The notes under the pieces were generated by a model. It did not search any database and was not told the origin of the DNA. It saw only the letters and a program-made list of their open reading frames with translations. From contig NZ_QTZO01000005.1 in the NCBI RefSeq assembly GCF_004025585.1, positions 1-64,000 on the forward strand: a DNA stretch of 64,000 nt, written 5' to 3'. This stretch comes from Pseudodesulfovibrio sp. S3 (GTDB lineage Bacteria > Desulfobacterota > Desulfovibrionia > Desulfovibrionales > Desulfovibrionaceae). Below are positions 14,000 to 28,159 of the stretch, piece after piece; positions within the stretch are counted from its first letter, which is position 1; every line of letters starts with the position of its first letter. The position numbers were made by a program, and so were the translations under genes.

Positions 14000-14749
14000 G
14001 TGAAGACCTACACCATTCATCCCATAGTCATGGGGACCAAGGTTTTTGACAAGGGCATGATGACCTATCAACAGGGATACGGCACCCCGTATACCATCCC
14101 GATCTATACCTGGTATATTGAGGGCGGCGACAAGAACATCCTGGTGGACACCGGGGAGATGCAGCCCATCGTGTCGGCCGAGCGCGAACAGGCCATCGGC
14201 GGCAAGATATATACCTTTGAGGAAGGGCTGGCCAAATACGGCCTCAAGCCCGAGGATATCGACATCATCATCCACACCCATCTGCACAACGATCATTGCG
14301 AAAACGACTACAAGTGCGTCAATGCAAAGATATATGTGCACGAGAAGGAGATGGAGTCCGTGTACAACCCCCACCCGCTGGATTTCCGTTATCTGGAGGA
14401 CTACGTGGACGATGCCAAGGAAAACGGCCAGATTGTCACCGTGGCCGAGGATACCGAGGTCCTGCCGGGCATCACCATGATCCATACCCCGGCCCACACT
14501 CCGGGGGGCATGTCCATCAAGATCGAGACCGACAAGGGGTCGGTCCTTATCTGCGGGTTCTGCACCATCCTGGAGAACCTGGACCCGCCAAAGGAAGTCC
14601 GGGCCATGGAGATGGAAGTCATTCCGCCCGGCACCAACACCGGTCCGTATGAGGCCTACGACATTTTGCTGAAGGCCAAGGACATGGCCGACTTCGTCCT
14701 GCCGCTCCATGAGCCCAAATGGGCGTCCATGGAAACCGTGCCCGAGTAA
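14000..14749 (+). CDS. MBL-fold hydrolase, AHL-lactonase-like
   Basis: 249-residue metallo-beta-lactamase-fold protein nearest in pattern to the N-acyl-homoserine-lactonase group. The metal motif H94-L-H96-N-D98-H99 is intact, H166 lies in TPAHTPGG and H237 in LPLHEP. The bridging Asp normally found after the fifth metal strand is not evident: the local sequence is VLICGFCTI (182-190). It may therefore bind metal differently. The start is GTG with AGGAAG upstream. A true quorum-quenching role is not supported by context; a general lactone or ester hydrolase is as likely. Confidence 0.75.
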   Translation: MKTYTIHPIVMGTKVFDKGMMTYQQGYGTPYTIPIYTWYIEGGDKNILVDTGEMQPIVSAEREQAIGGKIYTFEEGLAKYGLKPEDIDIIIHTHLHNDHCENDYKCVNAKIYVHEKEMESVYNPHPLDFRYLEDYVDDAKENGQIVTVAEDTEVLPGITMIHTPAHTPGGMSIKIETDKGSVLICGFCTILENLDPPKEVRAMEMEVIPPGTNTGPYEAYDILLKAKDMADFVLPLHEPKWASMETVPE

Positions 14750-14756
14750 ATCGCGG

Positions 14757-14790
14757 CGGGGAGCTTCCCGAGAGGAGGCTCCCCGTTTTT
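14757..14790 (+). terminator. Intrinsic terminator after the MBL-fold gene
   Basis: CGGGGAGC and GCTCCCCG pair around a 13-base loop; TTTTTC follows. Confidence 0.85.
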
Positions 14791-14828
14791 CTTGCCATTG
14801 CACCTGAGCGGGGAGTACCGTTCACACC

Positions 14829-15740
14829 ATGTCCCCAATCATACTCGCCATATTGCCCATATTCGGGCTGATCCTGCTGGGATTCGTCCTGCGCAGGCTC
14901 GATTTTCCCGGAATCGGTTTCTGGCCTGTGTCCGAGCGCCTGACCTACTATGTCCTGTTTCCGGCCATGCTGGTCAGCGGACTTGCCGGGCGGCATTTTG
15001 ACGGTTCGGCCATGGGGATCGGTCTGACTCTGGCCTCGGCCATCTGTCTTGTGGGCGCGTTCCTGGTGCTCACCCGGACCATGTTCAATCTGGACGGCCC
15101 GGTCTTCACCTCGGTTTTTCAGGGAGCCATCCGGCCCAACACCTACGTGGGGCTTTCGGCTGCGGCCGCATTGCTCGGCCCGGACTGGATGACGCTTTCG
15201 GCCGTGGCCCTGCTCACCCTCATTCCCCTGGTCAACGTCCTTTGCGTGCTGGTGCTTTCGCGCCACGGCAAACACGGCGGCGGCCTGGGCAGGGTGGGGC
15301 TGGAGCTGCTCAAGAATCCCCTCATCCTGGCCTGCGTGGCGGGGTTGATCCTGAGCGGGCTCAATCTGGAACTGCCCGGCGTGGTTCTGGATCTGCTGAC
15401 CATCCTGGGCAAGGCGGCCCTGCCGCTCGGCCTGCTGGCCGTGGGCGCAGGACTGCAATTCGAAGGGATCGGCGCGACAACCATGCCCGTGGGGCTGGCT
15501 TCTTTGTCCCATCTCGTGGCCCTGCCCCTGGCCGCCTACGGCTGTGCCCGGCTGTTCGGCGTGGAGGGGCTGGCCCGTGACGCGGCGCTGATCTACACAG
15601 CCATTCCGGTGTCCGTATCCGCCTTTATCCTGGCGCGCCAGATGGGCGGAGACCATCGGGTCATGGCCCTGATCATCACTGCGCAGACTGTTTTGTCCGC
15701 AGTGACCATGCCCCTGATACTGGCCCTGCTTGGCAGTTGA
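14829..15740 (+). CDS. AEC-family (auxin efflux carrier-like) transporter
   Basis: 303-residue inner-membrane protein with about ten hydrophobic segments. The start MSPIILAILPIFGLILLGFVLRR, the RLTYYVLFPAMLVSGLAG segment and the duplicated second half (VLDLLTILGKAALPLGLLAVGAGL) are characteristic of AEC permeases. Bacterial members export or import small carboxylic acids such as malate or malonate. The substrate cannot be read from sequence. It starts 38 bases after the preceding terminator and is probably transcribed alone. Confidence 0.88.
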   Translation: MSPIILAILPIFGLILLGFVLRRLDFPGIGFWPVSERLTYYVLFPAMLVSGLAGRHFDGSAMGIGLTLASAICLVGAFLVLTRTMFNLDGPVFTSVFQGAIRPNTYVGLSAAAALLGPDWMTLSAVALLTLIPLVNVLCVLVLSRHGKHGGGLGRVGLELLKNPLILACVAGLILSGLNLELPGVVLDLLTILGKAALPLGLLAVGAGLQFEGIGATTMPVGLASLSHLVALPLAAYGCARLFGVEGLARDAALIYTAIPVSVSAFILARQMGGDHRVMALIITAQTVLSAVTMPLILALLGS

Positions 15741-15860
15741 TCCGGCACGGGGTGCCTGAAACCGGGAGTTCAAGCTCTTGGGAAAACCCCTTGATTCGAG
15801 CGGGGAATTGGGACAGTATGCCGCTAATTTGCTGTTCCCCGTATTGATAAGGAGTATTCA

Positions 15861-16346
15861 ATGGCTAAAGATTTCAGAGAATATCTTGTTGAAGCGTCCC
15901 GGCATGAACTGTTCGGCCGCGTGTTCAAGGAACTGGCCATCGGGCTCAAGGTGGTGGTCTCCTTCCAGGCCAGCGAGACCCATGCCTGCTACCCGGAAAA
16001 GACCCTGGACGATCCTTACGAATATACCCGCTGGGAAGTCGCCCTGCGTTCCTCCACCCCGGCCATCGACGTGCCCAAGGCCGGCGCCTGGGAATACCTC
16101 AAGCACAACTATTGGGCCAAGCCCTTTGACAAGCCTGATTTTCAGCGTGCCCTGGTGGGAGAGAACATCCCCACCAAGGACTGCCAGCAGATTCTGGAGG
16201 ATGTCATCGAATACGCCAAGCTCAAGGGGCACCTGGATTCCGAAGAAGAAATCCGCGTGTTGGAGCCGGACGAAGAGGTCAAGAAGATTTCCGCTTGCGG
16301 CGGCTGCGGCGGCAAGAAGAAAGCTGCCAAGTCAGCCGAAAAGTAA
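15861..16346 (+). CDS. Conserved-looking hypothetical protein with C-terminal CGGCGG motif
   Basis: 161 residues, not recognised. It is soluble, with no signal and no membrane segment. The N-terminal two-thirds is aromatic-rich and charged (DDPYEYTRWEVALRSS, WEYLKHNYWAKPF). A helical region (CQQILEDVIEYAKLKGHL) and an acidic stretch lead to a short C-terminal ACGGCGGKKKAAKSAEK tail that could bind a metal or be flexible. AAGGAG lies 8 bases before the ATG and a strong terminator follows, so it is a well-expressed single-gene unit. Confidence 0.75.
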   Translation: MAKDFREYLVEASRHELFGRVFKELAIGLKVVVSFQASETHACYPEKTLDDPYEYTRWEVALRSSTPAIDVPKAGAWEYLKHNYWAKPFDKPDFQRALVGENIPTKDCQQILEDVIEYAKLKGHLDSEEEIRVLEPDEEVKKISACGGCGGKKKAAKSAEK

Positions 16347-16365
16347 ACAAGATGACCAAGGCATA

Positions 16366-16397
16366 AAAGGCCCGCTCTCAACAGAGAGCGGGCCTTT
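16366..16397. terminator. Bidirectional terminator
   Basis: AAAGGCCCGCTCTC and its reverse complement around a four-base loop. It serves the plus-strand hypothetical gene and the minus-strand YbhB-like gene, which converge here. Confidence 0.9.
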
Positions 16398-16401
16398 GTC
16401 G

Positions 16402-16953
16402 TTAACGGCCGTATCTGGCTGTCAGGGTTGCCGAGCCCAGTGAATGGGCGTTCAGGAAAAAGCCGACCATGGCTGCGGAACTGTCCGCTCCGAGATCGAG
16501 CTTCTCGACATTCAGGGCGTGGACAGTGAAGATATACCGGTGTTCCCCATGATGCTCCGGGGGACAAGCCCCGCCATAGCCGGGTGCGCCGAAGTCCGTC
16601 CGGCTCTGGACCGTGCCTTCCGGGAGACGACCGCCTTCGGCAAGGCCGGTCGCTGTTTTGGGGATATCGAACACCACCCAGTGCCACCAGCCGCTTCCCG
16701 TGGGGGCATCCGGATCGTAGACGGTCACGGCAAAGCTCCTGGTTCCGGCAGGCGGGTTCTGCCACTGAAGGGCGGGCGAAATGTTTTCGCCGGTGCAGCC
16801 GAAACCGTTGAGCAGGTGTTTCGGGGGCAGCGTGCCGCCATCCTTGACGGTCGGGCTGGTCAGGGTGAAGCCGTCCGCCATGCAGGCCGGGGCAAAGGTT
16901 AAAGCTAGGGCAAAGGCCAGGGCCAGGGAAAGGGAAAAACGTGTCCTATGCAT
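16402..16953 (-). CDS. YbhB/YbcL (PEBP, Raf-kinase-inhibitor-like) exported protein
   Basis: 183 residues. A signal peptide (MHRTRFSLSLALAFALALTFAPACMA) precedes a full PEBP-fold domain: FTLTSPTVKDGG, GENISPALQW, SFAVTVYDPDAPTGSGWWHWVVFDIP, GYGGACPPEHHGEHRYIFTVHAL. The DPDAP and GxCPP-HRY motifs form the family's ligand pocket. The ATG at 16953 has AAAGGAGG 7 bases upstream, which rules out the longer frame to 17100. The biochemical role of bacterial PEBP proteins is unsettled. Confidence 0.9.
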   Translation of the reverse strand: MHRTRFSLSLALAFALALTFAPACMADGFTLTSPTVKDGGTLPPKHLLNGFGCTGENISPALQWQNPPAGTRSFAVTVYDPDAPTGSGWWHWVVFDIPKTATGLAEGGRLPEGTVQSRTDFGAPGYGGACPPEHHGEHRYIFTVHALNVEKLDLGADSSAAMVGFFLNAHSLGSATLTARYGR

Positions 16954-17008
16954 GAAATGCCTCCTTTGATGTTGGAGGCGTTCTAGCAGTCCGTATGGAT
17001 GGGCGCAG

Positions 17009-17899
17009 TCACGATCCGGCCAAAGGTTGATCCAAAACGGCGTTGTACTGCAATATCTGGCTCGGACTGACGCCGAACCGTTCCCGGAACAGTCCGGCAA
17101 AGCGTGAGGCCGAGTTGTAACCGCACCGGTATGCCGTTTCTCCCACGGTCGCAGTGCCGGTTTGGAGCATGGCCAGCCCGGAGTTGAGCCTGACCTCCCG
17201 GAAAAGGCTTCGGAGAGATGTGTTTTCTTCGTTCAGGTGCCGCCGGAGGGAACGCTCGCTTGTTCCCAGTTTGGCCGCGATGGCCTCGGCGGTCCAGGCC
17301 CTGCCCGGTTCCATGCCGATGAGTCGGCAGCACCGTGAACTCCATGTTGAAACCGCGTCCCACAGCAGCGGCAGACAGTCGGTGCGTTCGGCCATGAGCA
17401 GAAGCAACTCTTCGCGGCAGAGCGAGAGGAGCCTTTTGTTGTCCGGGCTGGCCGCTGCCATGTGCAGCAGGTGGTTCAACGATGATCCCACAAGGGCATC
17501 GCAGTCTGTTTTCAGCGCTTCCAGGGACAACGGCGGGCGGATTTCCGGGCCGGACCTTTCCGAAACCACCCGTCCGACCATGTCCTCATCATAGACAAGG
17601 CAGAGGGCGAGATACCGGCCGTTTGCTCTGTCCGGACGGTTTTCGATGATTGTCTCCATCCGGGCGGGATAGAGGAATCCCTGACCGGTCTTCAATTCTA
17701 TTCTGTTTTCGCCGTGAATGATGGTTTTCGTCCCCGAGAGGATGAAGAAAAGGGCGGATTGGGGCAGGGAGACGGACAACAGCCGGTGGGATGCGGCGCT
17801 GGAAACCATGCCCAGAAACGGGATGGATGTGGGGCCTTCGCCGGGCGAAAGCCTGCCCATGAGTGTCTGGAGATGTCGTATTGTGGCCGAGGTGTCCAT
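17009..17899 (-). CDS. AraC-family transcriptional regulator
   Basis: About 296 residues. The C-terminal two HTH motifs of AraC/XylS are clear (AWTAEAIAAKLGTSERSLRRHLNEE, then VGETAYRCGYNSASRFAGLFRERFGVSPSQI). The N-terminal domain resembles the AraC-type cupin-like sensor (ALFFILSGTKTIIHGENRIELKTGQGFLYPA). No convincing Shine-Dalgarno exists for either the ATG at 17899 or a GTG at 17932 that lies 9 bases after the DUF554 stop, so the start is uncertain. It may be translated by coupling with DUF554. Target genes unknown. Confidence 0.85.
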   Translation of the reverse strand: MDTSATIRHLQTLMGRLSPGEGPTSIPFLGMVSSAASHRLLSVSLPQSALFFILSGTKTIIHGENRIELKTGQGFLYPARMETIIENRPDRANGRYLALCLVYDEDMVGRVVSERSGPEIRPPLSLEALKTDCDALVGSSLNHLLHMAAASPDNKRLLSLCREELLLLMAERTDCLPLLWDAVSTWSSRCCRLIGMEPGRAWTAEAIAAKLGTSERSLRRHLNEENTSLRSLFREVRLNSGLAMLQTGTATVGETAYRCGYNSASRFAGLFRERFGVSPSQILQYNAVLDQPLAGS

Positions 17900-17941
17900 G
17901 CCCGGAGGATAACAGCGGCGGAACCGGTTCACAAGCGGCGG

Positions 17942-18625
17942 CTAGCCGAAGAAAAAGGTCAGCACGACCACGTAGGCCAGGGCGGGCAGCAGATTGGCCA
18001 GCCGGATTTCGGTCAGTTCCAGCAGGTTGATGCCGATGCCCACGATGAGCAGGCCGCCGCATCCGGTGATCTGTGCGATCATCATGTCCGAGAAATATTG
18101 CTGGAAAAAGGAGGCCCCGATGGTGATGGACCCCTGGTAAAGGAGCACCGGGATGAACGAGAAGATGACCCCGGTCCCGTAGGTGGCGGCAAAGGCGATG
18201 GCCGCAAAGCCGTCCAGGATGGATTTGGTGTAGATCACGGTGGCGTCGCCCCGGATGCCTTCATCCAGGGAACCGATAATGGCCATGGCCCCGATGCAGA
18301 AGAGGAGCGAGGTGGTGACCAGGCCGTCCGTGAAGTTGTCATTCTTGGAGCGCACGATCCTCTTGAAGCGGTTGCCCAACCGCTCCAGCATGGAGTCGAG
18401 TCGCAGCAATTCCCCAGTGATGCCGCCGAGCAGCACGGAGAAGATGACGATGAGAATGTTGTCCACCTTGAGGGCCATTTGGATGCCGATGAGCAGCACG
18501 CACAATCCCAATCCCTGAAAGACGATGGTCCTGATCCGTTCCGGGAAGCGGGACTGCAGCCAGCAGCCGATGAGGGAACCGCCGATGATGGCGCAGGCAT
18601 TGACGATGGATCCGATGGGTAACAT
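17942..18625 (-). CDS. DUF554 (YdfK-like) membrane protein
   Basis: 227 residues, six to seven hydrophobic segments. It begins MLPIGSIVNACAIIGGSLIGCWL and carries the conserved LGLCVLLIGIQMAL and FCIGAMAIIGSLDEGIRGD motifs of DUF554. The family is a predicted inner-membrane transporter of unknown substrate. It is followed on the same strand by the AraC regulator with at most a short gap, which suggests regulator and transporter act together. Confidence 0.88.
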   Translation of the reverse strand: MLPIGSIVNACAIIGGSLIGCWLQSRFPERIRTIVFQGLGLCVLLIGIQMALKVDNILIVIFSVLLGGITGELLRLDSMLERLGNRFKRIVRSKNDNFTDGLVTTSLLFCIGAMAIIGSLDEGIRGDATVIYTKSILDGFAAIAFAATYGTGVIFSFIPVLLYQGSITIGASFFQQYFSDMMIAQITGCGGLLIVGIGINLLELTEIRLANLLPALAYVVVLTFFFG

Positions 18626-18686
18626 GTATGCATCCTTGTTCAGGCGAAGACTCTCTGCAAAGCGGTGCTACCACCAAGAGGTAGGC

Positions 18687-18711
18687 GTGACAAGGATATT
18701 GACAGGGAGGT
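18687..18711. repeat. 25-bp direct repeat, copy 1 (copy 2 at 19409-19433)
   Basis: This stretch, starting GTGACAAGGATATTGACAGG, matches 22 of 25 positions with 19409-19433, which contains the -35 region of the tRNA-Leu promoter. Copy 1 has no tRNA behind it and no good -10 box. It lies between the Spy-like and DUF554 genes. Confidence 0.5.
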
Positions 18712-18761
18712 CGGCGTCCGCCCCGGCCGTGGAGGGCGCAGGGCGGACCGCACGAATCATG

Positions 18762-19211
18762 CTAGCGGCGGGGAGGAGGGCCGCTCTTGCCGCCACCGTT
18801 CGGAGGTCCATCCGGTCGGTCCTGTTTTTGTTTTTCCATGGCCTTGGCCTCTTCTTCCAGCAGCTTGCTGTATTGGAACATCTGGTCTTCGGTCAGGTGG
18901 GCAGACAGCTTCAGGCAGATATCCCACTCGAGGTTTTCCCGTTCCTTGCGCATTTCCTCCGGGGATTTGCGGTCTTCACCGGGCTTGTCCATGAGTGCGG
19001 ACTTGCGCTCGCACTCTTCGGCCAGGATCGGTTTGATGGCTTTGGATTGTTCCGGCGTCAGGTTCAGCCGTTTTTCAAGCACGACAAGGCGCTCCTCGGC
19101 CGTAGGGACGGGAGGCGGCCCCATTTCTTCGCGTGAAGGCGGTTCATGGGAGGAGCAGGCAGCAACAAGGAACAGGGCCGTGAGGGCCAACAGAGTAAGG
19201 TGTCGTTTCAT
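18762..19211 (-). CDS. Spy/CpxP-like (LTxxQ) lipoprotein
   Basis: 149 residues. The signal sequence ends in a lipobox (LFLVAACSS, Cys19), so it should be a lipoprotein. Two motifs typical of the Spy/CpxP/zinc-resistance-protein fold are present: LTPEQSKAIKP and LTEDQMFQYSKLL, in a highly charged helical body. Such proteins are periplasmic chaperones or metal-stress sensors. The C-terminus is Pro/Gly/Arg-rich. The Shine-Dalgarno is weak. The gene appears to be alone. Confidence 0.78.
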   Translation of the reverse strand: MKRHLTLLALTALFLVAACSSHEPPSREEMGPPPVPTAEERLVVLEKRLNLTPEQSKAIKPILAEECERKSALMDKPGEDRKSPEEMRKERENLEWDICLKLSAHLTEDQMFQYSKLLEEEAKAMEKQKQDRPDGPPNGGGKSGPPPRR

Positions 19212-19420
19212 GGCGTTCTCGATTTGTTCGGGTTCACGAATTGCCCCAAGCCGGAAGTGCGACCGGGTTTGGGCGAAATGTCGGTATAAGCCAATGGCGG
19301 CGAAACACCATTCATATGATGTTAAAAGATGTGAAAGTTTGTTGTGCGCTGCTTTTGATTTCTATTCGAGTGTGCGCGACCCGAGGCAATGCTTTGGGAC
19401 AGGAGATTGTGACAAGAATG

Positions 19421-19450
19421 TTGACAGGGGGGTGGCGGCTGCCCTATTAA
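19421..19450 (+). promoter_or_regulatory. tRNA-Leu promoter
   Basis: A consensus -35 TTGACA (19421-19426) is followed after 18 bases by TATTAA (19445-19450). The tRNA starts 14 bases downstream, which fits a sigma-70 start just ahead of it. Confidence 0.65.
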
Positions 19451-19463
19451 GAACGTCTCCCGT

Positions 19464-19550
19464 GCCAGGGTGGCGGAATTGGTAGACGCAGCGGACTCAA
19501 AATCCGCCGGGCGCAAGCCTGTGGGGGTTCGAGTCCCCCCCTTGGTACCA
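19464..19550 (+). tRNA. tRNA-Leu (anticodon CAA)
   Basis: An 87-base class II tRNA. The 7-bp acceptor stem (GCCAGGG / CCTTGGT) closes with discriminator A and an encoded CCA. The D-arm GGCGGAATTGGTAGACGC is typical of leucine tRNAs. The anticodon stem GCGGA/TCCGC encloses loop CTCAAAA, giving anticodon CAA. A variable arm and the T-arm (GGGGGTTCGAGTCCCCC) follow. It marks the left end of the probable genomic island. Confidence 0.97.
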
Positions 19551-19561
19551 GAATGAAATTG

Positions 19562-19597
19562 GCGGCTTGCGATGTATAATCGTAAGCCGCTATTTTG
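19562..19597 (+). terminator. tRNA-Leu terminator
   Basis: GCGGCTTGCGAT pairs with ATCGTAAGCCGC (one G-T pair), then TATTTTG. The whole element is duplicated, diverged, at 25243-25277. Confidence 0.8.
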
Positions 19598-19700
19598 TTG
19601 TTTGCATAAAAGAAGGTCCGACTTGCTTTTTCTTATTCGTTGTTTTGCCCTTTCTTCTTCGCAGGGGCTATCGCGATTATCGCATTGCAAGGCGATTAAT

Positions 19701-21806
19701 TCAGCTGGCGTTGCTTGCTGGAATGTTCAACGCAGGAGTAGCCAGCGCAATTATCTCGCAGGGGAAAAGTCGGTTGGGCGTGCCTCCTGAGTAGGGGTCG
19801 AAATGCTGATCGTCAGTGAGATCGTTGATGTTACCCATACCGTCCGAAGGATTACCCCAGCCAAAGTCGACAAACACCAGGCCTTGCTTGGTGTCTTCGC
19901 TGATGGAGGCCGAGAGGGTGATTTTACCGTAAGGAGAACTCACTTCGACTTCAGATTTATCCAGGATTCCGCGGGCTTCGGCATCCTCTGGATGTATGTA
20001 GACCAGAGGGATGGGGTAGGCCTTGGCCAAGGCGTGAAGGTTCTTGAACTTGGTGTGTACGAACTGAGTGGGTCTGCGGCTTGAACCCAAGAGTGTGAAG
20101 CCCTGCTCGGTCAGGTCGTCGAGCACAAGCGGCCTTCCTGCGGGATCGGCATAGACCGGCAGAGGAGCCGCGCCCAGGCGGTCAAACCACAGGGAGCTGA
20201 ATTCCACTTTGCGTGAAGGCGTAGCAAATCCGTTGGCCCTATATTTGCGGTATTGTATGGGCGGAGTTGCAAAGACGATGTGTTTGGCTTCCATTTCTTC
20301 CATTTCTATTCCCGAAGGATTGGTCATGAATTCCACCCAACTCCTGTCGTCATGGAACGGATAGTCTTGATGCAGATTCATCTTTTCAGCCAACTGGTAT
20401 TCAACTTCAAAGACCGAACGAGCCTCGCCCGCCGGCGGAGCGACCGGTCGACCCAGGGCGAAAAATCCGCCCTGGTGGCTGGAATAGGCCCTGTATCCGT
20501 AACTCTCAAAGGTGGAGGTCATGGGCAGGACCAAGTCTGCCAGGGCCGTGGTGGCAGTGGGAAAGATGTCGCAGGCCATAAGGAAGTCCAGTTTCTTCAA
20601 GGCGGCACTGGTGCGTGCGGAATTCGCCTGGATGAGTACCGGGTTTCCGTGGTGAACGATCATTGCCCTGGGGCGGTTTTTCTCCTCGCCCAGCAGGGCC
20701 TCTTTGATTGCCGGAAAGGGAACCTGTGGCGGCAGGGGAAAACGGTCGTATCCGATCCGTTGCTCGGTGGGCAGCGGTGCCGTGGGTAAGGTTGGGGGGT
20801 GGGGCATGGGCATGAAAACATTGCCTCCAGGAGTATCCAGGTTGCCTGTCAGCCCGATGAGGATGGCGATGGATCGGACTGCATCCACACCGTTGGTGTA
20901 CATGTCCAGACCGTTTCCTTCGTAAATGACGGCTGCCTGTGCCCCGGCGTAGTCCCTGGCCAGTTTTGCAATGGTTTCCGCCGAAATGCCGGTAATGCCT
21001 TCGGCCCAGGCAGGGTCAAATTCTGTCACGTGTTTTTTTAGCTCGGCCAAGCCGTGGCCATGCTCTGCGACGAAGTCGCGGTCGTACAGATCTTCCTCGA
21101 GGATGACATGGATCATGGCCAGGCCAAGGGCCGTGTCGGTTCCGGGCTTGATGCGCAGCCACTGATCACAGGTTTTGGCTGTGGAGCTGTGAAAGGGATC
21201 AATGCATACAAGACGTGCGCCCCGTGCCCGAAGCCGGGGAAGGATGTTGTCCAGGCCGCCGTCATAGGTTGCATAGGCCGAAAAACGGCCGCCGCCTACA
21301 GGGTCGCTGCCCCAAAAAAGGACCAAATCCGTGTTCGCGTAATCGGGTTCAGCTCGTATGCCTCCGGTGACAGCCCGGAAGGCCATCATGCGGGGTCCCA
21401 TACACAGGTTGGCGATACTGGTGAGATTCGGTGAGCCGAATGCGCCCATGAATTGCAAAAAACCGTCCCTGGCCAGGTAGGAGACCGGAGCACCCGCAAA
21501 TCGTGCCAAGGCAAGAGGGCCGTGTTGCTCACGGATTTTGCCTAATCGATCCGCAGCCACGTCCAGCGCTTCGTCCCAGGATATCTCAGCAAAGCCCCCG
21601 CGTGTTTTCAGCAATGGCATTGTCAGCCTGTCAGGGGCATGGAGCGTTGCCACGTTGGCCTGGGCTTTGGAGCAGATACGTCCACGGTTCATGGGATGGT
21701 CCGGGTCGCCGGTTACCTGTAATTTCCCATTGGCTTCTTGCGTGACGAGAAGTCCGCAGTTGTTGTGGCAGCATTGGCATATGGTGCGCTGGGTATGGGT
21801 GTGCAT
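19701..21806 (-). CDS. Cytoplasmic bis-MGD molybdenum/tungsten oxidoreductase
   Basis: 701-residue catalytic subunit of the DMSO-reductase superfamily. A [4Fe-4S] motif opens the protein (C10, C13, C17 and C45, the last in GRICSKAQA). FWGSDPVGGG, YEGNGLDMYTNG, GLTGNLDTPGGN and FPTATTALADLVLP are cofactor-binding signatures. Cys135 in IANLCMGPRM is the likely metal ligand by position. No Tat signal is present and no electron-transfer subunit is adjacent, so it should be cytoplasmic and single-subunit, as in acetylene hydratase-like or stand-alone dehydrogenases. The substrate is unknown. It follows an ABC importer on the same strand, but a terminator at 21871-21908 separates them. Confidence 0.85.
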   Translation of the reverse strand: MHTHTQRTICQCCHNNCGLLVTQEANGKLQVTGDPDHPMNRGRICSKAQANVATLHAPDRLTMPLLKTRGGFAEISWDEALDVAADRLGKIREQHGPLALARFAGAPVSYLARDGFLQFMGAFGSPNLTSIANLCMGPRMMAFRAVTGGIRAEPDYANTDLVLFWGSDPVGGGRFSAYATYDGGLDNILPRLRARGARLVCIDPFHSSTAKTCDQWLRIKPGTDTALGLAMIHVILEEDLYDRDFVAEHGHGLAELKKHVTEFDPAWAEGITGISAETIAKLARDYAGAQAAVIYEGNGLDMYTNGVDAVRSIAILIGLTGNLDTPGGNVFMPMPHPPTLPTAPLPTEQRIGYDRFPLPPQVPFPAIKEALLGEEKNRPRAMIVHHGNPVLIQANSARTSAALKKLDFLMACDIFPTATTALADLVLPMTSTFESYGYRAYSSHQGGFFALGRPVAPPAGEARSVFEVEYQLAEKMNLHQDYPFHDDRSWVEFMTNPSGIEMEEMEAKHIVFATPPIQYRKYRANGFATPSRKVEFSSLWFDRLGAAPLPVYADPAGRPLVLDDLTEQGFTLLGSSRRPTQFVHTKFKNLHALAKAYPIPLVYIHPEDAEARGILDKSEVEVSSPYGKITLSASISEDTKQGLVFVDFGWGNPSDGMGNINDLTDDQHFDPYSGGTPNRLFPCEIIALATPALNIPASNAS

Positions 21807-21870
21807 ATTGGTCTCTGGTGGTTATGATGGGATTGGTCAATGCCCCGGTGGTGATTGGGGGTGCGTCCAA

Positions 21871-21908
21871 GAAAAAGAGGCCGGGGTGTGGATGACGACC
21901 CGGCCTCT
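21871..21908 (-). terminator. Terminator or attenuator between the ABC genes and the bis-MGD enzyme
   Basis: On the minus strand AGAGGCCGGG and CCCGGCCTCT pair exactly and TTTTTC follows. It begins 15 bases after the SBP stop codon and 64 bases before the enzyme's start. Downstream expression needs read-through or a separate promoter, which I could not locate with confidence. Confidence 0.85.
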
Positions 21909-21923
21909 GTTTTAAGACAACCG

Positions 21924-22931
21924 TTATTGGTCCATGATTTTTTGGGAATTTTCCATAAAGCTCATGTCCACAACTGCATCCATGGGAATGGATTCCTTGA
22001 TCATGCCGACGCTGATGGATTGTTTGACGATGGCCTCATGTCCTGAAGCGGTCACCAGGCCAGTGTGGCTGAAGGGCTTGCGCACGTCGTCCACTATCGC
22101 TTCGTCAATGGAACCCAGGAAGTAGCTCTTGACGTTTTCTGCGATCTCTTTACTCGAATGGGTGCTTTCCCACTTCATGGCCTTGGCAACGGCATTCGTG
22201 AATTTTTGCATGATTTCGGGGTTGTCTGTAGCGAATTCATCCGTGGTCAGGACGACCTTCAGGGGGTACTTGTCCGTTCCGAGCACAGCCATGTGCTGGG
22301 CGGGATCGTTCATGTCCACCAATACATGTCCGCCTCGGTTCAACATCTGGGCCTTATGCACGCCGCTGCCAAAAGTGGCGTCGATTGCGTGGTTGGTAAA
22401 AGCGGGAATGATGGCCGTTCCCGGCAGGTCGACAAAGGTGACGTCTTTTTCAGGATTGATACCATAGTGGAGCAGGACTGCGGAGACGAATGCGCGAGGG
22501 CCGGAACCTGGCATCTTGGCAGAGAGGTTTTTTCCCTTCAGATCCTCAGGTCTTTTGATTTCGGGTTGGGCGATTATACACCAGGGGTGGGAATCGGTGG
22601 TGGTCAGTATAATCTTCAGGACTTTGCCTTTTTCATAGGTCTTCAGGGCCTGATCGTAGCTGGTCAGACAGAGTTGCACTTCCTTTGCCAGGAGAGAGGC
22701 AACGGAAAGGGGGCTGGATTTGAAATTGACAAACTTGATGGCAAGCCCCTGCTCCTTGAAGTAACCGAGATTGTCCGCGAGATAGAGGGGGATTCCATAA
22801 TCATCATGGCCGGGTTGGGCGATGATGACATTGGTCAGAGGTTCATCCCCTGCCTGAACTTTGACCGCAGCAAAAAACACAATGAAAGAGATCAATACAA
22901 TTCCAACTTTAACCAAGCCTCGCACATTCAT
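21924..22931 (-). CDS. NMT1/SsuA-type ABC substrate-binding protein
   Basis: 335 residues. A Sec signal peptide (MNVRGLVKVGIVLISFIVFFAAVKVQA) precedes a periplasmic binding domain of the NMT1/THI5/SsuA kind: IPLYLADNLGYFKEQGLAIKFVNF, then LTSYDQAL, DLKGKNLSAKMPGSGPR and a C-terminal VKQSISVGMIKESIPMD. Family members bind sulfonates, nitrate, pyrimidines, aromatics and similar ligands. GGAGG lies 7 bases before this ATG; the upstream extension to 23162 overlaps the permease and is not used. It is the third gene of the ATPase-permease-SBP set. Confidence 0.86.
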   Translation of the reverse strand: MNVRGLVKVGIVLISFIVFFAAVKVQAGDEPLTNVIIAQPGHDDYGIPLYLADNLGYFKEQGLAIKFVNFKSSPLSVASLLAKEVQLCLTSYDQALKTYEKGKVLKIILTTTDSHPWCIIAQPEIKRPEDLKGKNLSAKMPGSGPRAFVSAVLLHYGINPEKDVTFVDLPGTAIIPAFTNHAIDATFGSGVHKAQMLNRGGHVLVDMNDPAQHMAVLGTDKYPLKVVLTTDEFATDNPEIMQKFTNAVAKAMKWESTHSSKEIAENVKSYFLGSIDEAIVDDVRKPFSHTGLVTASGHEAIVKQSISVGMIKESIPMDAVVDMSFMENSQKIMDQ

Positions 22932-22953
22932 CGTCTGTCCTCCAAGAGTAGGG

Positions 22954-23739
22954 TTATAAGGCGGTGGGCCGCCATTTGAGAAGATACCGTTCCACCATTC
23001 CGAGCATGGCGTTGAGCACTGCCATAATGAGCATGAGAGTGATGATGCAGGTGAAGACGCGAGCGATGTTGTACATGCCGCCGGCGTATTCCACCATCCA
23101 GCCCAAACCTTCGTTCGCACCGATGTATTCACCCACCACAGCCCCGAGAAGGGCGGCGCCAAGTCCGGCCTTCACTCCGGCAAGAAGCCAGGGGGAGGAT
23201 GAGGGCAGGATCACCTTTCGCATGATTTGCCCTTTTTTCGCGCCCATGAGCCGGGCGGCATTGACAAGAGTCTGATCCACGTTCTTGAACCCTGCATACG
23301 CGTTGAAAAGCACGAGGAAGTAGACCATGAGGGCGGCCAAAAAGATCTTGGACTGCATGCCGAGCCCGAACCACAGTATGAATATGGGACCGAGTGCCAG
23401 TTTCGGGATGCCGTAAAAGGCCATGATGATGGGGTCGAGAATCCTGGCCAACAAATCGATCTTTTCCAGGAGCAGGGCCGAGGCTATCCCTGTAAATGTG
23501 CCGATGAGCAATCCGGCTAGGGCTTCCTTCAGCGTGACAATGATATGGGGCATGATGTCGCCCGAGACAAAGGCTTCCTTCATGTCAAACAGGATTGCCG
23601 TGGGTTGGCTCATGAAGAAAGGGTCGAGCAGGTCGAAACGGACCAAGACCTCCCATGCGGACAATACCCCGAAAATCAGCATCAGCCGGAGAGCGAAGAC
23701 CGTGGAGTTGGAACATCGTACAGGAGGCTTCATTTGCAT
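22954..23739 (-). CDS. ABC transporter permease (SsuC/TauC type)
   Basis: 261 residues, about six membrane segments. The EAA-type cytoplasmic loop reads LMGAKKGQIMRKVILPSSSPWLLAGVKAGLGAALLGAVVGEYIGANEGLGWMV, which is characteristic of the BPD_transp_1 permeases paired with NMT1-type binding proteins. Its start overlaps the ATPase stop by 10 bases, so the two are translationally coupled. Confidence 0.88.
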   Translation of the reverse strand: MQMKPPVRCSNSTVFALRLMLIFGVLSAWEVLVRFDLLDPFFMSQPTAILFDMKEAFVSGDIMPHIIVTLKEALAGLLIGTFTGIASALLLEKIDLLARILDPIIMAFYGIPKLALGPIFILWFGLGMQSKIFLAALMVYFLVLFNAYAGFKNVDQTLVNAARLMGAKKGQIMRKVILPSSSPWLLAGVKAGLGAALLGAVVGEYIGANEGLGWMVEYAGGMYNIARVFTCIITLMLIMAVLNAMLGMVERYLLKWRPTAL

Positions 23740-24638
23740 TCTCCAGCCGCCTGCAAGACTTCCGTACGCAGATCATTCCAGATGAGTCTTTGCATCTCCA
23801 CGAATTCTGGTTGGAATCTGGTTTCCAAGGCCGAGCGCGGGCGGGCCAGGGGGATGTCGTATTCGGTGTTGATTGTGGATGGCCGTGCGGTCATGAGAAT
23901 GACGCGGTCACAGAGAGTGATTGCCTCGGTCAGGTCGTGGGTAACAAAGAGGATGGTCTTTTTCGTGTCCTGCCAGAGTTTCAATATCTCGTCCTGAAGC
24001 ATTTCTTTGGTGAAGACATCCAAAGCGCCAAAAGGTTCGTCCATGAAAAGTGTATCGGATTGGGTGGCCAGGATGCGGATGATGGTCACCCGTTTTTTCA
24101 TGCCTCCGGACAGTTCGTGGGGGTAACTGTTTTCAAAGCCGCCAAGCCCTGCTTTTTCAATGAGGTCCCGTGAAATTTCCCGGCGTTCCTTTTTTGCCTT
24201 CCCCTGCAACTCCAAGGCGAATTCCACATTGCCGAGTACTGTGCGCCAAGGCATGAGTGTATCCGCTTGGGACATGTACCCGATGCTTTGGGTGACGCCG
24301 GAGAGAGGTGCTCCATCCAGGTAAACTCGACCCTGGTTGGGGCTGACCAAACCGGCCATGATATTGAGCAGGGTGCTTTTTCCACAACCGCTCGGCCCGA
24401 CAATACCCACAAACTCCTGCTCTTTCACCTGGATGTTCACGTCATGGAGAGCAGGAGTCTTCTGTCCTGCAGGAGAATGGTAGGAGTGGGTTATTCCGCA
24501 GGCCGAGAGCTTGAAATCATTGTCCGGGATTGTTTGCAGGATGTCTTTTGAGTGATCCATGCATTGCATTTCGACCATTGGACTGTTTTTTAGAGTAGTT
24601 GGCTCCACGGTTTTCATCATTACCTTTTCCATATCCAA
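23730..24638 (-). CDS. ABC transporter ATPase (SsuB/TauB type)
   Basis: 302 residues. Walker A GPSGCGKST, a Q-loop in SIGYMSQADTLMPWRTV, the signature LSGGMKKR, Walker B TLFMDEP, D-loop GALD and the H-loop FVTHDLTEA are all present. The N-terminus carries about 40 residues ahead of the ABC domain. The start is uncertain: ATGs at 24620 and 24617 have an AAGG upstream, while 24638 has little. First gene of the importer operon. Confidence 0.87.
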   Translation of the reverse strand: MDMEKVMMKTVEPTTLKNSPMVEMQCMDHSKDILQTIPDNDFKLSACGITHSYHSPAGQKTPALHDVNIQVKEQEFVGIVGPSGCGKSTLLNIMAGLVSPNQGRVYLDGAPLSGVTQSIGYMSQADTLMPWRTVLGNVEFALELQGKAKKERREISRDLIEKAGLGGFENSYPHELSGGMKKRVTIIRILATQSDTLFMDEPFGALDVFTKEMLQDEILKLWQDTKKTILFVTHDLTEAITLCDRVILMTARPSTINTEYDIPLARPRSALETRFQPEFVEMQRLIWNDLRTEVLQAAGECK

Positions 24639-25179
24639 CAGGTTGTATCTCTGGGCAAGATGCTCGATGGCACCAAGAGATTTGGAGACTCGACTTTCCT
24701 TTACTGTGAATTCAAGCCATCGATTGTTCAGCGCAACAAGGGAAAACTTGGGCTCATCTTATATGCTAATGCGAGCATAATATAGATACTATCTATCTGG
24801 CGCATTCAGATATACTATGTGTTGAATTTGTGTCAACCACGACCTGCTATATTAAGCTTTCACAGCAGAAAGCAGGAGGGGAGAGCAGTGAAGTGCTTAT
24901 TGTGTTGGGCCCATGGCAAGCACTTTAAAAAGTCTCGTAATACTGCCGATTCAAACCCGCCGCTTGGTGGCCAACAGGATGAATCCACCTCTGTGCCTGT
25001 GTGCGCTAACTCAGGGGCATTTAGTTTTTGATTTGCCCTGCATTGTTACAAAGCACTTTGAAAATAGTGCACAAGAAGGCGTTGTCGCGTGGAGGCAACA
25101 ATGGGCGTGCATTATTGTCTGTCGCGCATTTGAGGCAAACATGTGAGGTTGTGGGGGAAAAGGCGAAATTAAGACCTAC
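24639..25179. other. Gene-free, AT-rich region upstream of the importer
   Basis: No credible coding sequence. A small dyad TATGCT-AATGCG-AGCATA (24762-24779) lies 124 bases upstream of the ATPase start and could be an operator. The rest shows low GC relative to its surroundings, in keeping with acquired DNA. Confidence 0.4.
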
Positions 25180-25277
25180 AATCCGCCGGGCGCTAGCATG
25201 TGTATGTGGGGCGAGCCCTCCTCCTGGTACCAAAATAAAATTAGCGGCTTACGATGGATAATCGTGGGCCGCTTTTT
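25180..25277 (+). pseudogene. Decayed copy of the tRNA-Leu 3' half and its terminator
   Basis: Starting at AATCCGCCGGGCG (the 3' side of the anticodon stem), this stretch tracks the intact tRNA at 19501 through the CCA. It then continues without gaps through the tRNA's terminator. I count 37 of 45 identical bases after the CCA, with most changes being transitions. The T-arm is broken, so it cannot be a working tRNA. It looks like an old attachment-site duplication marking the right end of an island. Confidence 0.75.
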
Positions 25278-25285
25278 GTCTGCAA

Positions 25286-25310
25286 GGGGGGGCACCCTCC
25301 TGGTTCCAAA
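25286..25310 (+). repeat. Possible third fragment of the tRNA-Leu 3' end
   Basis: GGGGGCACCCTCCTGGTTCC followed by an A-run resembles the end of the decayed tRNA copy (GAGCCCTCCTCCTGGTACCA). It is short, so homology is only suggestive. Confidence 0.35.
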
Positions 25311-25680
25311 AAAAAGAGGGGATTGGGGAAGGTGTTTATGGATTAACTGTAACATCTGCGCCAGTTCCTGAAGCGCTGAAGTCAACACCCAAGCAGACAT
25401 ATACTCCATGTCATGTTGTTTTGAGAGCAATATTTTCTGTACCGATTCTCATTTGATATGAATAAAAAAACGGTTCAACACAACCATGTATAACTGTATT
25501 AAAATAAGGCGGTGGAGAAAGAACTAATAAGATAGGTGTATTCATGATGGTATTATTGTCAGTGTGGTTTTTTTATAGTTGCTTATCTAAACTGAATTAA
25601 CACAAACTGGTTTGCCACTAAATTGGGTGGAAACAATACTAATGAAAACAGTGTCCTGCCCCCAGATTGCTCAGTCCTGC
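25311..25680. other. AT-rich spacer, no gene seen
   Basis: Low-GC sequence downstream of the fusion gene's stop at 25681. Short reading frames here have no ribosome-binding site or recognisable content. Confidence 0.4.
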
Positions 25681-27162
25681 CTATGCAATTTTAACGCGAG
25701 GATCGCATGTCTTGATATATTCCTTGATTTCATTGGCAAATTCGGAATGAACGTGAATGGATTCGTAGTCAACGGTGGTGGCGGTAATGTACTGGAGGAT
25801 AATGTTTTCGTTTCCCTCGTCGTCGGGGCCGACTCCAGCGAAAAAGAAGCCCATATCTTCAAACGTTGCTGCCATTGTTCTGGTTAAGGGGTCTCCCAGA
25901 GGGAGTGCCAGATGGACAGAAAAAATCCCTTGAGCGCATGCATGTTTCAATCTGTCCGCAATCTGGGCAGCTGCATCAACTCCATATTCTTTCACCCCGA
26001 AGGCGGTCCAACCCTCTTTAATGTCCGACATAGTCCATATGCTTGATTCAGGACTCAGGGGCGGGGCATCCGTTACCGTGTTGCCCACGCTTACCGATAC
26101 GCCGTGGTGCGCATAGATTCGTTCAACCATCTGTCGATGATGATTGGGAATGTACAAGGTTTGGCCACAAAATCCATCGAGATATTTGACAAATATCAAG
26201 TTTCCGATTCGTCTCTTGTCAGCTTCTGAGTCCTTGCCCCATGAGTGTGAGGCCGGGCTTGTATCAATGAGTATGCCGCACTCTTTGCTTCCTAGGCTGA
26301 GTATGGCTCGTTGAGAATGGACGTGGTTGGTGACGGCAAAGGCTTCAATGGCATAGATGCTTCGTTTGCGGGCATCTTCTTCAAGGAATGCAGCCAGGCG
26401 AGATGCGCCTCTTTTGCTTCTGAACCGGGGATCAACAAAGCCGAACGTCAATTCCTCCACGAGAGACTTTGTCTTGCGTCGCACCAAAGCACCGTGTCCC
26501 ATTATCTCATGGGTGTCGTCTGTTTCGATCACCACGGATACCATTTTTTGGGCATGGAGTATCTCTCTGACCCGATCAGGGTAGTAGATATACTCGCTGA
26601 ATAAAACCGCTCCATGCGATTGGAAGGCTAATCGAGAGATAGCTTCGGCATCGTCTGGGGAAGCGAGGCGAAGAGTGTAATCCGTATTTTCGTATAGGTT
26701 TATTGTTTCCCGTGGTGTGGTTTTCTCGTAGGCCAATTTCGCGGGAAGATATTTTTCCATTGAGAGTGTTCGCCTTCCTCCCGGTTGGATGGAAAAGGAT
26801 ACCTTGTCTAGCATTTTTTCGATGAGCAGCAGGCTTATTCCGGTGACGTCTCCACATTGTACGGCGCGTTTTGGGTCGTATTTTGGGAGTTGCGCAATTT
26901 CCAATGGCAACCCATGGAATTGAATGGTTATCTGTAACCCCAACGAGGTCCTGGAAATAGTGGTCTCTATGGTTTCCTGAGGGCCGCCGTAGCCAAATTC
27001 AAGGGCATGATTCAGTCCTTCATCCATGGCGAGGCTGATGCGATATGTGTCTTCTTTGGCAAAACCCGCGCTGTCGGCACAGCTTTTCGCAGCCGAAACG
27101 GCAATGGAAGTATACATTACGTTTGCAGGTAGCGTCATAGAAACAGAATCAGTTCTTTTCAT
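25681..27162 (-). CDS. Anti-sigma-kinase-like ATPase domain fused to GNAT acetyltransferase
   Basis: 493 residues in two parts. Residues ~1-140 look like a HATPase_c_2 (RsbW/SpoIIAB-type) domain: YRISLAMDEGLNHALEFGYGG corresponds to the N-box and DVTGISLLLIEKMLDKVSF to the G-region. Residues ~160-300 resemble a GNAT domain (YTLRLASPDDAEAISRLAFQSHG, then ELTFGFVDPRFRSKRGASRLAAFLEEDARKR). The last ~190 residues look like a second, degenerate acetyltransferase-like half. Possible roles are partner-switch signalling or acetylation of a regulator. The Shine-Dalgarno is poor. Its base composition is lower in GC than the flanking core genes. Confidence 0.72.
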   Translation of the reverse strand: MKRTDSVSMTLPANVMYTSIAVSAAKSCADSAGFAKEDTYRISLAMDEGLNHALEFGYGGPQETIETTISRTSLGLQITIQFHGLPLEIAQLPKYDPKRAVQCGDVTGISLLLIEKMLDKVSFSIQPGGRRTLSMEKYLPAKLAYEKTTPRETINLYENTDYTLRLASPDDAEAISRLAFQSHGAVLFSEYIYYPDRVREILHAQKMVSVVIETDDTHEIMGHGALVRRKTKSLVEELTFGFVDPRFRSKRGASRLAAFLEEDARKRSIYAIEAFAVTNHVHSQRAILSLGSKECGILIDTSPASHSWGKDSEADKRRIGNLIFVKYLDGFCGQTLYIPNHHRQMVERIYAHHGVSVSVGNTVTDAPPLSPESSIWTMSDIKEGWTAFGVKEYGVDAAAQIADRLKHACAQGIFSVHLALPLGDPLTRTMAATFEDMGFFFAGVGPDDEGNENIILQYITATTVDYESIHVHSEFANEIKEYIKTCDPRVKIA

Positions 27163-27685
27163 TTTTATCTCAGCTTGATTGTTGGAAAAACTTCAAGGCA
27201 TAAGGCATGCCCATTTTATGGGGACACCATGCCTAGATTTCGGGGGACACCATACCAATTTTTAGTTCCGTTCAGGCTTTTCAGGACGCACATCTTTCCC
27301 AAATATTCTCTCTCGCGCCGATCAAGGAAAAGCGGTCGATCTCCTGTTGAGGTATTCACCCGAGCGTAAGCCGCTCTCAGGTTCTGGCTCGGTAATGTAA
27401 TGGACATGGTTTGTCATGAATAGCCCAAATGGAGGCGGAACGCCTGTCGCCCGTTCGCATATAATCCCCAATCAGTGCAGGGGGGCAAGATCTTTCTTTC
27501 AAGATCTTTGCCGTGAACCCGACAAAAGAATAGACAAATGACTTATGGGGATGAAAGCTGGCTTTGCGACGAGGCAAGCGGGGCAGCTTCCGCCTGTCTG
27601 AATCATGCTTGGCCTTTTCGAGGAACTTTGGTTGGGCCTCGGAGAAGCATGAAGTCCTTGAATGGTGCTACGATCTGGAGTTTGT
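27163..27685. other. Intergenic region with a possible REP-associated transposase relic
   Basis: On the minus strand around 27290-27370 a frame reads ARVNTSTGDRPLFLDRRERE followed by YLGKM, which resembles the N-terminal region of IS200-like (Y1) REP-associated transposases, but nothing longer survives. On the plus strand GGGGACACCAT occurs twice (27219 and 27242), a pattern I associate with ends of such elements. No intact gene; the identification is tentative. Confidence 0.35.
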
Positions 27686-28159
27686 ATGAATAAAGTAAAG
27701 AATATCGCTGTGGTGGCTCATGACAACTGCAAGGAAGAGCTGCTGGATTTTGTGGACTGCAACCGTGACGCCATGCTCAGGCATAATCTGGTTGCCACGG
27801 GGACAACCGGCCGTCTGGTCGAGTCGCTGCTTGCCGAGAGAGCCCTGCGGTCTGCCGAGGGCCAGGGCATGAAAAAGGTCACCCGGTTGAAGTCGGGGCC
27901 GTTGGGCGGGGACCAACAGCTTGGCGCGCTGATCGCCGACGGGAAAGTCGACATCCTCATTTTTTTCTGGGATCCCATGGAACCCCAGCCCCACGACGTC
28001 GATGTGAAGGCATTGCTTCGTCTGGCCGTGTTGTACAATCTTCCGACGGCCAGCAACCGTTCGTCGGCAGAGTTTCTGATTTCATCGGTCTTTTTCGACA
28101 ATGAATTCAGTATGAAAAAAAGTGAATTCTTTGCCTATGCCGATAGAAGTCTGGACTAG
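27686..28159 (+). CDS. mgsA: Methylglyoxal synthase
   Basis: 157 residues. It converts dihydroxyacetone phosphate to methylglyoxal and phosphate, a bypass of lower glycolysis. The family's motifs are in place: NIAVVAHDNCKEEL (His12), the phosphate-binding ATGTTGRLVE, SGPLGGDQQLGALI with catalytic-type Asp76, and FFWDPMEPQPHDVDVKALLRLA. The ATG at 27686 has GGAG 6 bases upstream, better than an upstream in-frame start at 27662. Convergent with the MarR gene. Confidence 0.93.
   Translation: MNKVKNIAVVAHDNCKEELLDFVDCNRDAMLRHNLVATGTTGRLVESLLAERALRSAEGQGMKKVTRLKSGPLGGDQQLGALIADGKVDILIFFWDPMEPQPHDVDVKALLRLAVLYNLPTASNRSSAEFLISSVFFDNEFSMKKSEFFAYADRSLD

Follow-up and report, generated by a model that had tools for sequence, protein, structure and literature searches.

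Do an importer and the molybdenum or tungsten (Mo/W) enzyme encoded beside it work together, and if so, on what kind of compound? The question is raised by a four-gene cassette of Pseudodesulfovibrio sp. S3, located in the first 64,000 nucleotides of contig NZ_QTZO01000005.1, hereafter called the window (the whole stretch of DNA that was analysed). The cassette encodes an ATP-binding cassette (ABC) importer followed by a bis(molybdopterin guanine dinucleotide) (bis-MGD) enzyme of the dimethyl sulfoxide (DMSO)-reductase superfamily. The four genes are read here, with moderate confidence, as one acquired uptake-and-conversion unit in which the importer would feed the Mo/W enzyme. They are arranged as follows:

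23730..24638, minus strand: ATPase of the ABC importer, 302 residues, TTG start (Pfam ABC_tran, 108.7 bits)
22954..23739, minus strand: permease of the ABC importer, 261 residues (Pfam BPD_transp_1, 106.2 bits)
21924..22931, minus strand: NMT1/SsuA-like periplasmic substrate-binding protein, 335 residues (Pfam NMT1, 96.7 bits)
19701..21806, minus strand: bis-MGD enzyme with one [4Fe-4S] cluster, DMSO-reductase superfamily, predicted to be cytoplasmic and single-subunit, 701 residues, Cys135 as ligand

Counted in favour of this reading are the co-occurrence of the genes in the same four genomes, in the same order and strand and at two different sites; the binding proteins of tripartite ATP-independent periplasmic (TRAP) type upstream of two other members of the enzyme clade (DctP in G383, TAXI in G717); the clade-specific polar residues R174, R113, H386, R439 and Glu/Asp296 of the enzyme alignment; and the tau and ssu clusters of Escherichia coli, where an importer lies beside a cytoplasmic converter.

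Based on profile searches of 288 genomes of the family, the binding protein has an orthologue in four genomes (650–724 bits; next best 270 bits) and the enzyme in the same four (1425–1526 bits; next best 390.5 bits), and each of these genomes keeps the four genes in the same order and on the same strand. The co-occurrence across genomes that the preliminary description of the locus had proposed as a check is thus found. The chance of two sets of four among 288 coinciding is 3.6e-9 if kinship is ignored. In a phylum sample of 395 genomes, the same four reached at least 650 bits with the binding-protein profile, and all others stayed at or below 200.1 bits. These whole-genome searches scored the best few candidates per genome (two in one of them, four in the enzyme search of the 288 genomes). 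The cassette occupies two unrelated chromosomal sites: a tRNA-Leu in the window and a different place in the other three genomes, which are congeners, where it lies near a 2-oxoacid:ferredoxin oxidoreductase gene on the same strand (Pfam confirms POR_N in two cases, and the third is more than 90% identical). Protein identities between the two sites are 62–78%, the window ATPase being 73–76% identical to those of the three other cassettes and the permease 77–78% identical to its cassette relatives. Within the genus of the window genome, the enzyme orthologue occurs in one of 36 genomes, the matches in G027 (33% identity) and G013 (367 bits) being far weaker. Plasmid and phage collections held no matching record at 60% identity or more (0/1479 and 0/36, respectively). 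The co-occurrence supports the inheritance of importer and enzyme as a unit, and their joint function appears likely.

Within the cassette, the ATPase and permease genes overlap by 10 nt, a gap of 22 nt follows before the binding-protein gene, and 117 nt separate the latter from the enzyme gene. The start of the binding protein at 22931 was chosen for the GGAGGA upstream of it; the alternative start at 23162 is most likely an over-extension of the open reading frame (ORF). The N-terminus of the protein looks Sec-type by inspection. NMT1, BPD_transp_1 and ABC_tran all score above their Pfam gathering scores, as in an importer of the NMT1 superfamily, and the enzyme carries the Molybdop_Fe4S4, Molybdopterin and Molydop_binding domains. 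No twin-arginine pair is present in its first 40 residues; its open frame has 706 codons and the first cluster cysteine is residue 10, which is too short a stretch to accommodate a signal peptide. Within NLCMGPRM, it is Cys135 that aligns with the metal ligand. No electron-transfer gene was found among the eight proteins of 14000–28156 (Pfam) or among nearby ORFs (by inspection), and none of the eight window proteins scanned with Pfam carries a URO-D or B12 domain, which sets the locus apart from a type 1 mlp cluster. The preliminary description, an ATPase, permease and binding protein upstream of a 701-residue Mo/W enzyme next to tRNA-Leu, is confirmed by the gene coordinates and Pfam, with tRNA-Leu(caa) at 19464–19550. 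Its further points, that the enzyme lacks a twin-arginine translocation (Tat) signal and an electron-transfer partner and has Cys135 of LCMGPRM as ligand, agree with the inspection and alignment given above. Two features that it does not mention, a terminator-like hairpin inside the cassette and a decayed tRNA-Leu copy on the far side, are described below.

How did the cassette arrive at this site? Its 3' end faces a tRNA gene on the opposite strand, and a degraded copy of that tRNA lies at the other end:

19464..19550, plus strand: tRNA-Leu(caa), integration site (ARAGORN; Rfam, 55.3 bits)
25162..25279, plus strand: decayed direct repeat of tRNA-Leu and its terminator, old attachment site (local alignment)
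25286..25308, plus strand: possible second remnant of a tRNA 3' end, weak (alignment score 18; repeat family D1)

The decayed copy has a local score of 125, no other block of the window scores above 42, and a genome search also finds it, as 25180–25232, with 77% over tRNA positions 38–87. For this copy, Rfam returned one irrelevant match far below the gathering score and ARAGORN none. This is the layout of a tRNA-targeted island, with the tRNA gene at one end and, at the opposite end, a direct repeat of the 3' portion of the tRNA, here decayed. In six congeners of the window genome (G006, G019, G024, G025, G033 and G035), a copy of tRNA positions 30/31–87 lies 12.8–48 kb from the intact tRNA, and a Phage_integrase (tyrosine-recombinase) gene adjoins the distal copy in all four that were inspected (G006, G019, G024 and G035). 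tRNA-Leu(caa) is therefore a recurrent insertion site in the genus. Of 29 relative loci, 24 share with the window the gene region that flanks the tRNA on its 5' side; on the 3' side, no window gene was matched within 1.5 kb in these loci, of which L171 and L179 are short and L179 has overlapping, indistinguishable sides. No integrase was seen by inspection among the ORFs of 80 residues or more from 19551 to 25279. Taken together, the tRNA copy, the insertions in relatives and the flank pattern suggest that the cassette is probably cargo left at this site, and its acquisition, as proposed at the outset from the neighbouring tRNA, is probable. As a separate observation, the G+C content falls to 0.45–0.50 at 24500–27200. 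Within that stretch, the gene at 25681–27162 joins an RsbW-like ATPase to an acetyltransferase domain and is matched at 1e-60 or better in two of the 36 genus genomes, the window genome included.

To which group does the enzyme belong? No NCBIfam cut-off was reached among the 25 best of 28 matches. A tree of 123 sequences unites the four cassette enzymes in a single clade (support 100), nested in a nine-row clade (support 100) with five relatives at 44–52% identity. The tree left out OWN_C1, GC_L069 (a duplicate of G092), G718 and G717, the last being a partial gene at a contig end. None of the members of the nine-row clade is characterised; acetylene hydratase, PsrA, FdhF/NapA and DmsA/BisC are placed elsewhere. 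NapA is the only nitrate reductase among the references, which lack NarB and the nicotinate/aromatic hydroxylases. With these references, the phylogeny suggested in the preliminary description puts the enzyme in no characterised clade, and its assignment to an uncharacterised clade of the DMSO-reductase superfamily is supported by sequence comparison. A query with the single enzyme returned no direct named relatives among genome contigs or viral contigs. A query with the alignment matched at least 594 stretches, of which 80 loci were kept at 26–45% identity; only one of these 80, L069 (the contig of G092), falls inside the enzyme clade. One further comparison left out L074 and took in 38 of the 80 loci.

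An active-site alignment of 125 rows (11 clade members and 114 others) gives 136 positions that are invariant within the clade. Q118, E469 and Y470 occur in all 11 members and in 0/114 others. The same 11 share R174 (1/113 outside), R439 (3/114), H386 (3/113), D114 (5/114) and R113 (8/114), as well as Glu or Asp at position 296, while H14 is found in 11/11 members and also in 31/111 others. In the window enzyme, the ligand is followed by a methionine (C135-M136); position 136 is histidine in four of the 11 clade members.

Could the enzyme be a non-redox hydratase? The AlphaFold2 model (pLDDT 88, pTM 0.91) has acetylene hydratase of Pelobacter acetylenicus (2e7z) as its best fold match in the PDB, with a TM score of 0.89, followed by PsrA with 0.87. 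By sequence 2e7z ranks second, and both enzymes have one 4Fe-4S motif and a Cys ligand. However, the active-site Asp and the hydrophobic ring of acetylene hydratase are not kept. In that enzyme, we take Asp13 between the cluster cysteines to be catalytic and a bulky hydrophobic ring to lie over the metal. Sequence alignment pairs Asp13 with His14, and I14, I113, I142, W179, W293 and W472 with N15, V108, M136, R174, E296 and H444 (acetylene hydratase numbers from a hand count along the printed chain plus 3). Moreover, 2e7z belongs to a separate tree group of 43 rows (support 98) that does not hold the window enzyme. The fold thus resembles that of acetylene hydratase, yet the aligned pocket positions appear polar instead of hydrophobic. 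Because the active-site residues differ, an acetylene-hydratase-like role is weakened and considered very unlikely, which narrows the earlier suggestion of a hydratase, dehydrogenase or reductase.

A catalytic subunit of formate dehydrogenase, nitrate reductase or thiosulfate/polysulfide reductase would be a more familiar identity. The best NCBIfam matches are Fdh-alpha and PhsA, and the best sequence match among solved structures is PhsA/PsrA (2vpw), which has a CxxPR ligand motif similar to that of the window enzyme. The cut-offs are, however, missed widely (261 against 666 bits for Fdh-alpha, 235 against 694, and 209 against 1100 for NasC). The active site of formate dehydrogenase presumably comprises a Sec/Cys-His pair at the ligand position and the Arg within PVRGQNNVQG; the window enzyme has Met after the ligand Cys, and its alignment contains no PVRGQNNVQG-like stretch. 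PhsA/PsrA presumably carries a Tat signal and works with B and C subunits, whereas the window enzyme has no Tat signal, no neighbouring partner subunits and a separate clade. It does not group with NapA either, NarB not being among the references. Such an identity is thus most improbable. Acetylene hydratase, formate dehydrogenase, nitrate reductase and thiosulfate reductase were accordingly rejected as identities on residues, cut-offs and tree.

How would such an uptake-and-conversion unit work? The exported binding protein would capture a small, probably polar organic solute, which the permease-ATPase pair would import. In the cytoplasm, the enzyme, with a Cys-ligated Mo/W bis-MGD and one [4Fe-4S] cluster, would perform a two-electron redox step on this solute. 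Since no partner subunit is encoded, a soluble electron carrier is proposed, such as ferredoxin, with which the enzyme would exchange electrons. The analysis itself shows the gene set, the families of its products, its conservation as a set, its place at an insertion site and an enzyme clade with no characterised member. We infer that the importer delivers its solute to the enzyme, that the chemistry is redox and not hydration, which carrier takes part, and what kind of substrate is used.

Several observations weigh against a single functional unit. The gap between binding protein and enzyme contains the following element:

21869..21908, minus strand: terminator/attenuator-like hairpin with a T run, between the binding-protein and enzyme genes (folding)

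Read from 21908 to 21869, the hairpin has a ten-pair GC-rich stem followed by the T run, with a minimum free energy of -28.3 and a z-score of -4.62; none of 200 shuffles was equally stable. The automated terminator scan, which allows loops of 3–8 only, missed it. The corresponding gap in the three other cassettes folds strongly too, with no clear T run (by inspection and without shuffles). The enzyme gene may thus be attenuated or separately transcribed. The initial idea of a single simple operon and transcript was lowered because this terminator-like hairpin separates the two genes. Next, ABC genes are adjacent in none of the seven next enzyme relatives (44–52% identity). Nor is any of these seven genomes among the seven with a binding-protein match in the 395-genome phylum search, a comparison in which four of the relatives' genomes belonged to one phylum draw and the genomes of the binding-protein search are not all listed. 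Since three of the four cassette genomes are congeners, the co-occurrence is best read as two independent observations. The permease tree differs from the two other importer trees: it joins the window gene to that of G336, whereas the ATPase and binding-protein trees set the window gene apart from all three other cassettes. Finally, the argument from a polar pocket rests on the alignment.

The hairpin and the enzyme relatives without an importer would also suit an importer and an enzyme of different pathways that are merely carried together. Against this stands the set being intact at two unrelated sites despite the divergence between them, and we regard mere neighbourhood as unlikely. The uptake-and-conversion module of the preliminary description therefore keeps its conserved gene set, its probable acquisition and the uncharacterised clade of its enzyme, while its simple operon and an acetylene-hydratase-like role have lost ground. 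ABC genes, whose absence beside all homologues would have spoken against the module, are present beside the four cassette enzymes and absent beside the seven next relatives.

What might the unit take up? None of the importer proteins reaches an NCBIfam cut-off among the matches listed. For the ATPase this applies to the 25 best of 188 matches (TauB 222 against 357, SaoA 204 against 360); the permease scores 119 against 295 for SaoP and 114.5 against 342 for TauC, and the binding protein 71.7 against 163.5 for SsuA_fam and 39.7 against 304 for TauA. A search of solved structures with the binding-protein profile gave weak matches only (3qsl, THI5, TauA and others), from which no ligand could be inferred. 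The next-best binding proteins of the family occur in five genomes (G456, G636, G644, G019 and G034), where a DUF169-type protein is fused to the ATPase or precedes it (Pfam on L145, sequence likeness for the others); the ATPase and permease of these five are 48–53% identical to those of the window. The DUF169-ATPase fusions (L145 7119–8813, L146 11714–13399, L147 11499–13202 and L148 11615–13267; Pfam for L145 only) link an uncharacterised domain with the importer family. Outside the family, a fused URO-D/B12-binding protein directly follows the binding protein in three of three genomes (G112, G148 and G449). Such fusions after an NMT1-type binding protein lie at L232 5865–7457, L233 8677–10287 and L234 6230–7921; at the edge of L233 (G148) there is also a short enzyme match of 23% identity, which is unrelated. 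In Acetoanaerobium noterae, DUF169, URO-D and corrinoid genes occur together with an importer relative. Among the nine importer relatives seen in context, five are thus DUF169-linked, three URO-D-linked and one both, and no Mo/W enzyme was seen beside these DUF169- or URO-D-linked importers. Each of the three groups of binding proteins has likely ligand motifs of its own (QPGHDDY, EAVRGEG, EAVRGFF and others), so that shared ligands cannot be assumed.

The gene contexts of the seven next enzyme relatives are diverse. A TRAP binding protein lies within three genes upstream in two of them. In G383, it is a DctP-type protein directly upstream on the same strand, with an XylR_N/V4R sigma-54 activator downstream. 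In G717, a TAXI-type binding protein, a DctM permease and a gamma-glutamyltranspeptidase precede the enzyme on the same strand, with a flavoprotein nearby. G236 has a TAXI-type importer a few genes off on the opposite strand. The enzyme gene of G711 is flanked by FmdE and URO-D on one side and by URO-D and a corrinoid protein on the other, and also lies near an AMP-binding ligase, an alcohol dehydrogenase and a major facilitator superfamily (MFS)-like transporter (the last by inspection). No such importer is directly adjacent in G396, G092 and G718 (by inspection). At L219 2873–8795, a Mo/W enzyme gene stands amid URO-D, corrinoid-protein and FmdE genes.

Two special cases of the uptake-and-conversion reading follow from these contexts, both of them tentative. 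In one, the unit would act on a methylated or oxidised chalcogen or one-carbon (C1) compound, such as a sulfonate or an oxide of methyl-sulfur or methyl-selenium type, with the Mo/W enzyme in the position that corrinoid methyltransferases occupy in sister systems. This would suit the nine nearer importer relatives, with their DUF169 or URO-D/B12 partners, and the G711 enzyme amid two URO-D genes, a corrinoid protein and FmdE. In PMC10418091, type 1 mlp URO-D/corrinoid clusters are linked to methyl-sulfur and methyl-selenium metabolism. However, the binding-protein groups may differ in ligand as they do in motif, corrinoid neighbours are found in just one of the seven next enzyme relatives, no URO-D gene was noticed by inspection near the five DUF169 loci, and the eight scanned window proteins hold no URO-D or B12 domain. 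In the other case, of similar standing, the unit would serve the anaerobic catabolism of an organic acid, aromatic or otherwise. The activator and DctP protein of G383, the ligase, transporter and alcohol dehydrogenase of G711, and the TRAP importer, flavoprotein and gamma-glutamyltranspeptidase of G717 point this way, but these contexts come from relatives of 44–52% identity and differ among themselves, and nothing similar was seen by inspection beside the four cassettes. For testing the uptake-and-conversion reading, the lead preferred first, at modest probability, is an S, Se or C1 compound in methylated or oxidised form.

The architecture as such is known from nrtABCD-narB and tau/ssu; the new part is the uncharacterised enzyme. 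Enzymes of the DMSO-reductase superfamily are numerous in some anaerobes, where a first, unscored look gave up to 42 candidates in a single genome, and to our knowledge most of them have no known substrate. Here, an uncharacterised Mo/W enzyme is tied to its own binding protein on a portable cassette, and screening this protein for ligands would lead directly to what an entire uncharacterised clade acts on. The literature searches listed no paper whose entry names such an importer-Mo/W enzyme module.

Among known systems, nrtABCD-narB of nitrate assimilation, an ABC importer beside a single-subunit cytoplasmic bis-MGD enzyme, shares this combination with the window; the differences from nitrate reductase lie in the NasC score and the tree given above. 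The tauABCD and ssuEADCB clusters of E. coli, according to their annotation, likewise pair an SsuA/TauA-type importer with a cytoplasmic enzyme that acts on what is imported. Their enzyme is an oxygenase, whereas that of the window is predicted to be an oxygen-independent Mo/W enzyme, and the window binding protein is 26% identical to TauA over 203 residues. SaoP and SaoA of the selenocysteine-assisted organometal (SAO) importer are among the best NCBIfam matches of the window importer, with scores well below their cut-offs (119 against 295 and 204 against 360). The nearest relatives found are the DUF169- and URO-D/corrinoid-linked importers, in which DUF169 or URO-D/B12 genes take the place of the Mo/W enzyme. 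A speculative and rather doubtful extension would make all of these one oxygen-independent counterpart of tau/ssu: an ABC importer family of anaerobes with an interchangeable partner (DUF169 protein, URO-D:corrinoid methyltransferase or Mo/W enzyme), always for methylated or oxidised S, Se or C1 compounds, and with a so far undescribed Mo/W chemistry of the enzyme. By analogy, the unit itself would correspond, in an anaerobe, to nrtABCD-narB or tauABC-tauD.

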